A DNA stretch of 41,145 nt from Methanoregula sp. (GTDB lineage Archaea > Halobacteriota > Methanomicrobia > Methanomicrobiales > Methanospirillaceae). Both the position numbers and the translations under genes were made by a program. The first letter of the stretch is position 1, and every line of letters begins with the position of its first letter. Below the pieces are notes generated by a model. The model was not told the DNA's origin. It did not search any database and was given only the letters and a program-made list of their open reading frames with translations. This document shows, piece by piece, positions 25,685-30,176 of this stretch. The stretch is taken from assembly GCA_028679185.1 (NCBI GenBank), contig JAJRBZ010000097.1:1-41145 (forward strand), in the 5' to 3' direction.

Positions 25685-27052
25685 TTATTTTTCCCGCTGT
25701 ATCCTTGTCAGTGGTGAGCACTGGTCAAAGAATTCCGCGATAAACGGTGCAAACTCTTCCTTCCAGCATTCCTCGCCCTCATCAAGTGTCCATCCCAGTT
25801 CCAGCGACTGCCGTATGTGTTTCCCCAGACTCACATTCAGGACAGCATCTGAAGACAGGAGGCTTTTTGCAGTCTGGTATTCTCTGGGTAACTCCATCAC
25901 GTACCGCCCATCTTCAATGAATGGTCCGGACTGGTGTTCCGCAAGATGTTTTTCCCGGAATTTATCTGCATTTGAGTGGTTCCAGAGCGGTGGCCCCAGA
26001 TGTCGCCGTATTGCAGGAAGGTCGCCAACAAGCAGCTCAAGGAGAATCATACACTTCTCCGGCTGCATATCATACGAAGCGTGATGGACAGGAAACCCAT
26101 TTCGCTCCAGCAGTTCCCGGATTGAAGAAACACTGCGCTTAAGCTGAGGCACAACAATCTCAGGGATAAGCTGGGGAGTCGCAAAGGAGACTGCAAAAAC
26201 ACATGTTCTGCGCTGAGCGATCCGTGCGGCCAGTTCCTTTTTCAGGATGCAGCGTTCCATCGGGTGCAGGAAGAATTCGTATACAGGTTTTTCACAATAC
26301 CCTCTCGCAAGTTCGACAAAACCTGCCATGCGATCCAGGGAAACTGCCGCTGCCACGTTTCGTTTCGGATCGACCGGGTCGATCACGACCAATGGTTCGT
26401 CGAATTTTTTTGCCGCATGTTTTTCAATATCAATAAAAAGCCCTGGCCGCCAGGAAGCCGCTGCCTGGATGAGTGGAGTAAATCCCCCATAGTGGAGCAC
26501 AAGGAGTTCGCAGAGATACCCTGAAAATCCTTCCGTCATCTGGTCTGAACCATAGATACCGCCCGCTTTTGTGAACTGCTTGAGCAGGAGCACATCATCG
26601 ATTAAACCATTGATCTTTTCAGTGATGTAACGTGTATGAAATGGTGTGCGGTCAACAGCACTCTGGATCCTGGTGGCGCTGTCCACCTTATAGCAGGGAA
26701 CAAGATCAACATCCACATCATCGATTGTTGCATTGATATAGGGGTGCTCGGTATATTTCTCATGGTACAGGCCGGTGAATGAGGCAGCGATACTTCGGGC
26801 GAGAGCAAGACCTTCAGTTTCAAGAGCTTCGCGCGACAACGCCGGGTCAAACATCATAAATACATCGAGATCGCGATCTCCGCGAACCCATGTATGACGG
26901 GCAATAGACCCCACGACCATCCCCTCGGCTTTCCCGCTTTGGGCGATTGCAGTAAGAAGACGTTTGGCCAGGCCGCATACATGTTCGTGTTCCTGGCTGG
27001 TCGGACGGAGAACCTTCAATACCTTCTCTTCAAGAGGCACCCGTTTCACCAT
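25685..27052 (-). CDS. cca: Archaeal CCA tRNA nucleotidyltransferase (class I)
   Basis: This enzyme adds or repairs the 3' CCA of tRNAs without a template. The class I archaeal form is recognised by the polymerase-beta-type head: GSIARHTWVRGDRDLDVFMMF with the two catalytic Asp residues, and a third carboxylate in DDVDVDLVPCY. The rest, including GIYGSDQMTEGFSGYLCELLVLHYGGF and the tail domain, follows the family. Length, 455 residues, is normal. Its start overlaps the end of thpR by seven bases, so the two RNA-repair genes are translationally coupled and form one operon. Confidence 0.93.
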   Translation of the reverse strand: MVKRVPLEEKVLKVLRPTSQEHEHVCGLAKRLLTAIAQSGKAEGMVVGSIARHTWVRGDRDLDVFMMFDPALSREALETEGLALARSIAASFTGLYHEKYTEHPYINATIDDVDVDLVPCYKVDSATRIQSAVDRTPFHTRYITEKINGLIDDVLLLKQFTKAGGIYGSDQMTEGFSGYLCELLVLHYGGFTPLIQAAASWRPGLFIDIEKHAAKKFDEPLVVIDPVDPKRNVAAAVSLDRMAGFVELARGYCEKPVYEFFLHPMERCILKKELAARIAQRRTCVFAVSFATPQLIPEIVVPQLKRSVSSIRELLERNGFPVHHASYDMQPEKCMILLELLVGDLPAIRRHLGPPLWNHSNADKFREKHLAEHQSGPFIEDGRYVMELPREYQTAKSLLSSDAVLNVSLGKHIRQSLELGWTLDEGEECWKEEFAPFIAEFFDQCSPLTRIQREK

Positions 27053-27585
27053 TTCACCTCAAGAAGATCTTCATATACCGGGCCCTGAGGTAAGAGTGTA
27101 CTCTTTTTTAGTTTCAGACCACTGATTACACAACTGCCATAGGTGTTCGTTTTCAGGGTATCAAGCGTCAAAAGCAATGACGGGTCAGGTGATTTAACCC
27201 GCGCTAACGTTGCATGGGGTGTAAAGTTGCGGGTCTCCCTCTCGAACCCAAGGGGTGCAAGCATATCCTCAATATGAAGGAATACCTGCCTGATTTGTCC
27301 CGCATCATCGATTGCAGACCAGATCGTGTGCGGGCGTTTCGGATTGTTCACCATAACAGTACCCGCAGTTATGGAAAACGGAACACTGGTGACAGATTTG
27401 AGTGCCTCCATTACTTTTTGCAGTGTCTTTCCATCCACTTCACCAAGAAATTTTACTGTAATGTGAATATTTTTTGGATCCACAAATGTGAGACGCGCTC
27501 TGCACCCCCGGATCGCGTCCTGTGCTGCTGAAAGCTGATCTTTTATATCTTTTGACAGTTCGAGTGCTACAAACGCTCTTACCAT
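27046..27585 (-). CDS. thpR: RNA 2',3'-cyclic phosphodiesterase (2'-5' RNA ligase family)
   Basis: This is a 2H phosphoesterase of 179 residues. Its two catalytic tetrapeptides are HITVKFLG near residue 42 and HATLARVK near residue 128. The family hydrolyses 2',3'-cyclic phosphate ends to 2'-phosphate and can join RNA halves in vitro. It is first in a two-gene operon with cca, a pairing that makes sense for tRNA 3' end maintenance. The ATG follows AT-rich intergenic sequence shared with the divergent redoxin-nrdD operon. Confidence 0.92.
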   Translation of the reverse strand: MVRAFVALELSKDIKDQLSAAQDAIRGCRARLTFVDPKNIHITVKFLGEVDGKTLQKVMEALKSVTSVPFSITAGTVMVNNPKRPHTIWSAIDDAGQIRQVFLHIEDMLAPLGFERETRNFTPHATLARVKSPDPSLLLTLDTLKTNTYGSCVISGLKLKKSTLLPQGPVYEDLLEVKW

Positions 27586-27712: not shown

Positions 27713-27982
27713 GTGCTGAAAAATCCGCAACTGATTGTGTATACGCTTGAATATTGTCCGAACTGTGAACTGCTGAAAGGTTTTCTTAAAAAAAAGGGAT
27801 ATAGTTACATTGAGGCCAATCTTTCGACTGCGGAATCACTCACCGAGCTGCGGATGAATGGCGTGTTTGTAAATGAAGCCCCTGTTTTACAGAAAGACTC
27901 ATATTTCTATACTTCTGCGGATATTTTTCCTGCAGGCAAACTGGATGGAGAGCACCTATCAAAACTGATATCAGGTGAATAA
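27713..27982 (+). CDS. Glutaredoxin-like (NrdH-type) redox protein
   Basis: This is an 89-residue thioredoxin-fold protein with the active site YCPNC near residue 15 and the cis-Pro region as NEAPVLQKDSYFY. It starts with GTG, supported by a gaaggtg ribosome site. The stop codon overlaps the nrdD start (TAATG). In Methanosarcina barkeri a class III ribonucleotide reductase takes electrons from a similar redoxin, in contrast to the formate-dependent enzymes, so this protein is the probable reductant of the reductase encoded next. What reduces the redoxin in turn is not visible here. Confidence 0.85.
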   Translation: MLKNPQLIVYTLEYCPNCELLKGFLKKKGYSYIEANLSTAESLTELRMNGVFVNEAPVLQKDSYFYTSADIFPAGKLDGEHLSKLISGE

Positions 27983-30165
27983 TGGCACGCCGCGAGACCA
28001 GGCAACTAACATTTGAGGGGATTACAGTCCCCATACTTCCCTCAGTCCGTACATCCGATGGACATATTATTGAATGGGATCGCAATCGTATTGTCCTGCA
28101 GATTGTTGAGGAGACGAAGCTGGTTGAGACGTTTTATGGATACAAGGGGGCAGACGAACAGACAGCACAGGAAATTGCGCATGATGTGGAAAACCGGATC
28201 AGGAACATGGGACTGAAGTCACTCTCAGGGCCGCTCATACGTGAGATTGTTAATATCACATTGCTGGAAAAGGGAATGATACAGTACCGCAATGTCTCCA
28301 CCCGTGTTGGTACTCCTGTTTTCGACGCGCACCAGATCGATGTTGGCAGGGGTTTTGAGGCACACGATAACGCAAACCTTCAGGAAAATGCCGAAACTTC
28401 ACACAAGAAGAAGGCGGACAAAATCTCCAAGGAACAGTACCTCCTTCAGCTCCCTCCCGAACTTGCTGATCATCACCTTTCTGGTGAGATGCACATCCAC
28501 GATCTTGAGTATTTCGGTACGCGCCCTTTTTGCCAGGACTGGGACCTGCGCTATTTCTTTTATTATGGGCTGATGCCTGATGGCAATGGTACAAAAGCTT
28601 CCGTTGCAGGCCCTGCAAAGCGTGCCGAAGTCGCAATCCTTCATGCCGTAAAAGCACTCGGGTCTGCACAGACAAATTTTGCCGGAGGACAGGGATACTA
28701 CAACTTCCTTACATTCCTCGCACCCTACATGGAAGGAATGGCGTATAACGAGATCAAACAGAACATGCAGATGTTTGTGTATGAAATGACACAAATGATG
28801 GTCGCCCGGGGGGGGCAGCTTGTTTTCTCATCGATCCAGCTCTCACCGGGTGTGCCAAAGCTCTGGCAGGACAAACCATGCATCTACAAAGGAAAAATAT
28901 GGGATGGCAAGTCTGCCCCAAAAAGGACTTATGGGGAGTTCGAGCGTGAAGTACGTCTATTGTTCAAGGCGCTCATGGAAGTTATGCTTGAAGGAGATTA
29001 CTGGGGCAAACCCTTCAACTTTCCCAAGCCTGAAATTTCAATTGAGCCAGACTTTATGAATGAGCGGGAAGAGTTCAACCGTAAAAATCCTGATCTGCCC
29101 ACATTCCAGGAATTATACCTCATGACATTTGAGCTCGCGTCAAAGTTCGGTACGCCGTATTATGATAACCAGCTGCCAGCTTACCGGGGAGCGGGTAAGG
29201 GAATCTCCTGTTATCAGTGCTGTGCATACCAGTTCTCAGCGGTGGCAGAAAAAGATTCGGATTTCAATAAGAAGCTGCACTTTGAGGAGGGGCGGCACTT
29301 CTCGATGGGATCCTGGCAGGTTGTATCAGTGAATTGTCCCCGTGCAGCATACAATGCGGAGAGTGATGATGCACGTCTCTTTGCTGAACTTAAAGGGCTG
29401 ATGGATGTCGCTGTGGAAATATTCAAGATCAAACGCCGCTGGATGGACCTGATCCGGGCGAACAGCCGGATGCCGTTTGCGATGCAACGCCCCAAAGACC
29501 CGAATACAGGTGAACGCGGTGCACTTGCTGTAGATCTCGGAGGTCTTGTATACACAGTTGGTATAGTAGGTGTTAACGAGATGGTACAGCACCACACGGG
29601 GAAACAGCTCCACGAATCAAAAGAGGCATTCAGGCTCGCGATACGGGCAATGACAGAGATGGAACTCTATGCCCGTGAACTTTCAAAGAAGAACAACATG
29701 ACAATTGCGCTGGCCCGGACACCGGCAGAGACAACAGGACAACGGTTTGCTGTAGCTGATTTAATCGACCGTCGTTATCACAATTTTGCCGTAAGGGTGA
29801 TTAAGGGTGACATTAAAGAGAGCCTGGAGATGCTGGGCAAGAGCCGCGATCTGCCTGTATATTACACAAACGGTACCCATGTAGCACCAGGTGCTAATGT
29901 CCCGCTCACCAAACGGGTGGAGATCGAACATGTGTTTTTCCCCATTGTTGATGGCGGTAACATTTTCCATATCTGGCTGGGTGAAGCACGTCCTGACCCG
30001 CGTGGACTCATGGATATGGCTATGAAGCTCTGCCAGAATACCCAGATCGGGTATTTTGCTTTCACCCGCGATATCACTGTCTCCCTGCGACAGTTCCATG
30101 AATTGAATACTGAAAAGAATGTAATTTCCCCGTGGGTGCAATCAGATTCCACGGTTAAGGCATAA
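27982..30165 (+). CDS. nrdD: Anaerobic ribonucleoside-triphosphate reductase, apparently lacking its C-terminal glycyl-radical domain
   Basis: This is a class III ribonucleotide reductase large subunit. An ATP-cone occupies about residues 20-110 (VRTSDGHIIEWDRNRIV). The ten-stranded barrel follows, with GEMHIHDLEYFGTRPFCQDW, FAGGQGYYNFLTFL, the Cys-rich CYQCCAYQF near residue 412, SWQVVSVNCPRAAY, and VYYTNGTHVAPGANVPLTKR near the end. NrdD proteins normally finish with four zinc cysteines and a glycyl-radical RVTGY-type motif. Here the chain goes from YFAFTRDITVSLRQFHEL to VKA and stops at 727 residues. None of the three downstream frames supplies the missing end. The protein may be inactive, may belong to a divergent type, or there may be a sequence error. 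No nrdG activase is nearby. Confidence 0.9.
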   Translation: MARRETRQLTFEGITVPILPSVRTSDGHIIEWDRNRIVLQIVEETKLVETFYGYKGADEQTAQEIAHDVENRIRNMGLKSLSGPLIREIVNITLLEKGMIQYRNVSTRVGTPVFDAHQIDVGRGFEAHDNANLQENAETSHKKKADKISKEQYLLQLPPELADHHLSGEMHIHDLEYFGTRPFCQDWDLRYFFYYGLMPDGNGTKASVAGPAKRAEVAILHAVKALGSAQTNFAGGQGYYNFLTFLAPYMEGMAYNEIKQNMQMFVYEMTQMMVARGGQLVFSSIQLSPGVPKLWQDKPCIYKGKIWDGKSAPKRTYGEFEREVRLLFKALMEVMLEGDYWGKPFNFPKPEISIEPDFMNEREEFNRKNPDLPTFQELYLMTFELASKFGTPYYDNQLPAYRGAGKGISCYQCCAYQFSAVAEKDSDFNKKLHFEEGRHFSMGSWQVVSVNCPRAAYNAESDDARLFAELKGLMDVAVEIFKIKRRWMDLIRANSRMPFAMQRPKDPNTGERGALAVDLGGLVYTVGIVGVNEMVQHHTGKQLHESKEAFRLAIRAMTEMELYARELSKKNNMTIALARTPAETTGQRFAVADLIDRRYHNFAVRVIKGDIKESLEMLGKSRDLPVYYTNGTHVAPGANVPLTKRVEIEHVFFPIVDGGNIFHIWLGEARPDPRGLMDMAMKLCQNTQIGYFAFTRDITVSLRQFHELNTEKNVISPWVQSDSTVKA

Positions 30166-30176
30166 TTTTTTTCGTT
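30166..30176 (+). terminator. T-run after nrdD
   Basis: Seven T residues follow two bases after the stop codon, with more T-rich sequence behind. There is no clear hairpin. This is a plausible U-tract terminator. Confidence 0.35.

Follow-up and report, generated by a model that had tools for sequence, protein, structure and literature searches.

In characterized class III ribonucleotide reductases, the glycyl radical resides within the catalytic chain. One such enzyme is the Methanosarcina barkeri-type NrdD3, a single-chain, NrdH-dependent reductase of the class defined by a QCCR/A finger-loop motif (PMC9669993), for which an NrdH-like redoxin has been reported as the electron source (PMC9176816). 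It has a QCCA finger-loop barrel whose zinc/glycyl-radical domain is the C terminus of the same chain, with an NrdH-like redoxin gene upstream and an NrdG2-type activase. Small stand-alone glycyl-radical proteins acting in trans with a barrel are represented by YfiD (GrcA) and by the virus-borne Y06I of phage T4 (PMC8683613). YfiD, however, is optional, belongs to another family and mends a damaged single-chain enzyme that owns a radical domain; the same paper raised the possibility of spare parts for glycyl-radical enzymes besides pyruvate formate-lyase (PMC8683613). In the NrdJa/NrdJb reductase of Pseudomonas aeruginosa, a barrel chain is accompanied by a second chain with a C-terminal zinc-finger part (PMC9669993), but this is a class II enzyme that uses adenosylcobalamin, and its second chain has no initiating radical. 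Finally, virus ANMV-1 encodes a stand-alone 144-residue radical-domain protein (AJP62049), which is of a different radical-domain subtype from the one described here.

Here we describe an nrdD gene in a 41,145-nucleotide stretch of DNA from Methanoregula sp. (assembly GCA_028679185.1, contig JAJRBZ010000097.1; hereafter the window). The gene product is very probably the catalytic barrel of a two-protein (trans-split) NrdD3-type class III reductase, the radical domain of which is carried by a separate 120-residue protein that would dock onto the barrel. The system shares the finger-loop motif, the upstream redoxin gene and the activase type of the M. barkeri-type enzyme, and differs in that its radical protein is separate, longer and has an added N-terminal zinc ribbon, and in that nrdG is unlinked. 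YfiD and Y06I would be the nearest working analogues of this radical protein, although in the split system the separate radical part is the only one. Our search of the open-access literature turned up no account of a split NrdD, and novelty is provisional.

The window nrdD gene and its C-terminal end

The nrdD gene (positions 27982-30165, + strand) encodes a class III reductase subunit of 727 residues that lacks the C-terminal zinc/glycyl-radical domain. In profile searches, it matched the first 511 of the 562 positions of PF13597 (NRDD) without an internal stop (444 bits), and also TIGR02487 (476 bits); the Pfam scan assigned it to PF13597 and not to PF02867. The 36 best PDB matches of its AlphaFold model, which is based on a shallow alignment, are class III reductases only (TM score by target up to 0.74), and both PF13597 and the predicted fold indicate the ten-stranded NrdD barrel. 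Model confidence is lowest at both ends, in residues 109-143 around the flap, in the finger loop and in three short loops.

Active-site residues were checked by alignment with 18 fused (single-chain) NrdD proteins and against the invariant positions of alignment A4. Those tested are all kept: the NxN flap, here Asn-Ala-Asn (residues 130-132; 28369-28377, + strand); HIHD, the substrate triphosphate motif (PMC11226230) (residues 171-174; 28492-28503, + strand); C184, the conserved cysteine of the first barrel strand, invariant in A4 and in the fused relatives (28531-28533, + strand); C413-C414 at the thiyl-radical site, of which C414 is invariant in A4 (29218-29223, + strand); N451; and TPAE (residues 580-583; 29719-29730, + strand). 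The cysteine pair lies in the sequence YQCCAYQF (residues 411-418), the QCCR/A finger loop of the NrdD3 subtype. An earlier note on this DNA had described the barrel as intact. An ATP-cone-like N-terminal region (residues 21-102; 28042-28287, + strand) scored 21.8 bits against PF03477, under the cut-off of 25.8. In the Prevotella copri enzyme, the NxN flap contacts the glycyl-radical domain, and the glutamate equivalent to that of TPAE bonds with the tyrosine following the radical glycine (PMC11226230). Because both elements are kept here, as is HIHD, which likewise faces the radical domain in that enzyme, the docking surface appears to be retained.

The same note had described nrdD as coupled to a redoxin, and this is so: a gene for a small glutaredoxin-like protein of 89 residues (27713-27982, + strand; PF00462 above cut-off), a putative NrdH-like reductant whose CPNC motif lies at 27755-27766, shares the sequence TAATG with the start of nrdD. 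Most split relatives, and several fused ones, have the same redoxin gene immediately before nrdD. On the minus strand, pointing away from the redoxin and nrdD genes, overlapping genes for a CCA-adding enzyme and a LigT-like RNA phosphoesterase occupy 25685-27585.

The sequence FTRDITV forms residues 694-700, and the chain stops 27 residues later. In place of the zinc/glycyl-radical domain is a replacement tail, SLRQFHELNTEKNVISPWVQSDSTVKA (residues 701-727 plus stop; 30082-30165, + strand; stop codon 30163-30165). Across relatives, the first residues of the tail, (S/C)L(R/H/K)(Q/R)(F/Y), are kept and the remainder is variable (dN 0.37-0.55). The earlier observation that the expected CxxC...CxxC and RVTGY-type motif are missing after FTRDITV extends to the whole window: an RxTGY-type motif with zinc cysteines is absent from all six frames, and three matches to a looser pattern were unrelated. 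The cysteines had been read as replaced by serine and phenylalanine. The serine is borne out, as the alignment places S701 (codon 30082-30084) at the position of the first zinc cysteine of the fused relatives; the phenylalanine is no simple substitution, because the sequence after S701 is a different tail. With the profile match stopping at 511 of 562, the barrel alone lacks one defining feature of class III enzymes, its own radical domain, and the candidate enzyme is therefore the pair.

A separate radical protein in the source genome

The source genome (2.1 Mb, 104 contigs, 97% complete) was searched in six frames with the NrdD profile. Two matches were obtained, one to profile positions 1-511, which is the window barrel (G000:C39), and one to positions 507-562 (G000:C99). 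The latter is an intact 120-residue gene (G000:C99, about 26484-26843; equal to L002:1489-1851, minus strand) with the sequence MDWSAEK...KCHTCHLIVDEKPCPKCGETHLEVMCPLDHCHCTHEIISGIEYCPLCGKAVCPECGSHDVTQISRVTGYLQDVSGWNASKQQELKDRVRYSVA. Its product bears paired zinc cysteines followed by ISRVTGY, which contains Gly95, and its C terminus aligns with the radical domain of P. copri NrdD (E 1.5e-6). C29, C32, C41 and C44 make up an N-terminal zinc ribbon, and further conserved cysteines precede the radical domain; all ten conserved cysteines and the RVTGY motif are present in hosts and viruses alike. A Pfam scan of the protein returned NRDD and a weak zinc ribbon only, with no match to the Gly_radical/YfiD family. 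Its AlphaFold model is poor (pLDDT 62, with residues 89-120 under 50). Comparison at the sequence level strongly supports the view that this separate protein would supply the missing radical domain.

The earlier note had proposed looking elsewhere in the genome for nrdG, for a separate small glycyl-radical protein and for class I or II enzymes. In addition to the 120-residue protein, these searches yielded an NrdG2-type activase (G000:C15; TIGR02495 above cut-off, CxxxCxxC present) and a class II reductase, encoded by a PF02867 gene outside the window.

Distribution across Methanomicrobiales

NrdD matches were found in 59 of 61 genomes of the family, in the same two-part pattern. The order sample comprised 150 Methanomicrobiales genomes and includes Methanoregula, Methanolinea, Methanospirillum, Methanoculleus and Methanofollis. 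Among the 109 of these with a completeness of 90% or more, NrdD is present in 97, and the small protein accompanies it in 96, the single exception being a genome of 93% completeness (G130). The other 12 genomes, which lack NrdD, come from a single genus; the small protein is missing from them too, two chance zinc matches aside. Four weak matches to the small-protein profile in this genus (E about 1e-4) were zinc stretches in long frames and were not counted. The genus is designated f6/g29, with 24 genomes listed or counted. NrdG2 was above cut-off in all 21 NrdD-bearing order genomes tested and in none of five tested genomes of f6/g29; these five still hold a PF02867 reductase. Barrel, radical protein and activase behave as one module across the order.

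This joint distribution bears on the idea that the barrel uses another radical source, with the small protein serving as an optional means of repair in the way that YfiD serves pyruvate formate-lyase. We know of no other radical source for the NrdD family. Small free-standing glycyl-radical proteins, YfiD and T4 Y06I, do indeed restore an enzyme that has been cleaved (PMC8683613), and viruses here carry stand-alone copies of the radical protein. However, the partner of YfiD owns a radical domain, which the barrels of the order never do, bar an extra full-length NrdD in one genome, and NrdG2 is kept and lost together with the barrel-small protein pair. We consider an optional repair part very unlikely and favour a two-protein reductase.

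Wherever a sampled member of the order has a complete barrel, closed genomes included, the C-terminal end of the barrel lies at about position 510 of 562. A split caused by contig breaks is ruled out, since closed genomes show it too (for example, G035, G042, G054 and G004), and an end shared by many independently assembled genomes, closed ones among them, is neither chance nor error. Orthologues of proven activity that end in the same way had been named beforehand as the finding that would speak against a defective enzyme; of these two elements, it is the shared end that was found, order-wide. Elsewhere in the phylum, NrdD is one chain in one frame, with a profile match from 1 to 560 or 562. 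Within the order, nrdD and the small gene are usually far apart in closed genomes, so there is no genomic linkage within cells, a point that counts against the two-protein reading.

Some order genomes depart from this pattern in other respects. In G061, an additional NrdD is full-length and includes a radical domain (G061:C1:590703-592373; L078:4689-6386); it is 565-569 residues long, is only of distant similarity and was probably acquired. Among order genomes G061-G169 (for example, G064, G094 and G132), many barrels lie in open frames of 1200-2000 residues; in these, the profile match is interrupted at shared positions, as would be expected from one or more inteins. The closed genome G089 contains two equal-scoring barrel matches (C1:285076-286791 and 300796-302511) about 15 kb apart, likely the result of a recent duplication.

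Origin of the split and selection

In phylogenetic trees, the split barrels form one clade nested within the fused QCCA enzymes (support 100/100 with full sequences and 92/100 without the C-terminal part), to which they are 66-74% identical over the barrel. Some split lineages retain the first zinc cysteine as a remnant (TVC, in FTRDLTVC...). Outside the order, both parts are fused in one frame, forming a Rosetta-stone fusion of the two proteins. Because there is one split-barrel clade inside fused NrdD3, and one chain outside the order, the split appears to have arisen once. A single split at the base of the order would explain this most simply, the small protein being seen thereafter with a second zinc ribbon. 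Judged from these comparisons, the split pair evidently descends from a single-chain ancestor.

Relative to its congeners, the window barrel has a dN/dS of about 0.02-0.04 where dS is estimable, many dS values being saturated; for the small protein, dN/dS is 0.06-0.12. Both are under purifying selection, which is strong for the barrel. A decaying gene, or an assembly error behind which the true gene continues into a normal radical domain, would account for the missing domain and for a tail unlike that of fused NrdD proteins. It does not, however, fit with strong selection on the barrel, with an end shared by every sampled order member with a complete barrel, with the lack of a radical motif downstream in any frame or with the existence of the missing piece as a separate intact gene, and we give it practically no credence. 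The truncation is conserved, purifying selection is strong and the active site is intact; decay and sequencing error are therefore rejected. Both had been offered in the earlier note alongside a radical domain supplied by another protein, and it is the latter that is strongly supported.

Viral and integrated copies

Viruses provide a further and independent line of evidence. Eight IMG/VR contigs carry a stand-alone radical protein of the host type (L206, L216 (=L207), L217, L218 (=L208), L219, L220 (=L209), L221 and L222 (=L210)). In several of them, the gene is next to replication genes (Prim-Pol, AAA_24 ATPase and helicase) or a terminase. For seven of the eight, no barrel is present in the available record, which may be a fragment. 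In the remaining one, the 127.7-kb contig behind L221, the radical gene is followed after 272 bp by a truncated barrel gene in the same orientation, without cbiZ. The small protein and barrel of this viral pair are 52% and 64% identical, respectively, to those of the source genome.

Three extra radical proteins of 100 residues each are encoded by one Methanomicrobiales genome, G036 (L063:917-1219, L064:5967-6269 and L065:5812-6114). A phage integrase gene is found near one of them and a terminase-like frame near another; they are probably parts of integrated elements. Stand-alone proteins of 64-81 residues, with a different type of NrdD radical domain (CEVYSRIVGYLRPV...), occur on other viral contigs without a barrel (L272:2442-2687, L276:5989-6183 and L279:3825-4049). 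It is possible that these viral proteins are spare parts for ordinary single-chain NrdD. The ANMV-1 gene for AJP62049 (L285:2180-2614; KP703175.1:25525-25959) encodes a radical domain only, ending in the radical motif YSRIVGY. It is annotated as an anaerobic ribonucleoside triphosphate reductase and has been cited as a viral reductase (PMC4372165); the ANMV-1 record KP703175.1 annotates no further reductase gene.

Genomic setting and other reductases

A class II reductase is present in most order genomes besides the split enzyme, and the split enzyme thus need not be essential there. Methanoregula sp. SKADARSKE-2 (G054, closed, CP121470.1) has neither PF02867 nor PF00317, that is, no class I or II large subunit, and the split enzyme therefore appears to be its only reductase. 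Because this genome is rated 94% complete, the absence of a class II enzyme is strong, not absolute. G075, considered as a second such genome, was dropped because a PF00317 fragment is present.

In cellular genomes, the small gene lies in a conserved block with the order dys, pyrF, small gene and a cbiZ-like gene, with replication protein A genes nearby; in many genomes it overlaps cbiZ. Counts for the cbiZ neighbour cluster (c3) include overlapping wrong-frame ORFs, and we relied only on overlapping genes that were read directly. In the source genome, the overlapping gene (L002:605-1492) encodes a CbiZ-like adenosylcobinamide amidohydrolase fused to a cysteine-rich small domain (PF04071), and a cobalamin salvage gene thus adjoins a reductase part. 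The conserved block, the neighbouring replication protein A genes and the cbiZ overlap could mean that the two genes are functionally parted, the small protein serving, for example, its cbiZ or replication protein A neighbours and the barrel having a regulatory or other non-reductase role. Against this, the active-site residues of the barrel are intact; barrel, small protein and NrdG2 are lost jointly in one genus; a virus has the barrel adjoining the small gene with no cbiZ; and one genome is without another reductase. Functional separation of the two genes is highly improbable on this evidence, and we retain the reading of a two-protein reductase.

Proposed mechanism and implications

In the two-protein enzyme, the small protein would dock its glycine loop into the barrel beside finger-loop residues C413/C414. 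NrdG2 would abstract a hydrogen from Gly95; by analogy with YfiD (PMC8683613), it would probably do so once the small protein has docked. The radical would then pass from Gly95 to the C413/C414 thiol, starting NTP reduction, and the NrdH-like redoxin encoded upstream would act as electron source by recycling the barrel cysteines. Because the radical subunit is separable, it would be replaceable after cleavage by oxygen, and its supply may set activity. A bolder proposal, which we make tentatively and would sooner doubt than assume, is that host and virus radical subunits are exchangeable cartridges competing for one pool of barrels. The supply of radical subunits, and not that of barrels, would then set dNTP output, replacing an oxygen-cleaved copy would cost 120 residues, and solo subunits would be carried by viruses of Methanomicrobiales, and perhaps by those of other archaea, to boost or rescue the host reductase during infection.

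Genome annotation can mislabel both parts of such a system, with split barrels taken as truncated and a radical protein of 120-144 residues as a whole reductase. An order-wide separate radical protein offers a natural system for the study of radical-domain docking, activase timing and turnover of the radical part. The detachable radical part looks obligatory in split NrdD, and is also carried by viruses. An enzyme known elsewhere as one chain thus appears to work in Methanomicrobiales as two exchangeable parts.
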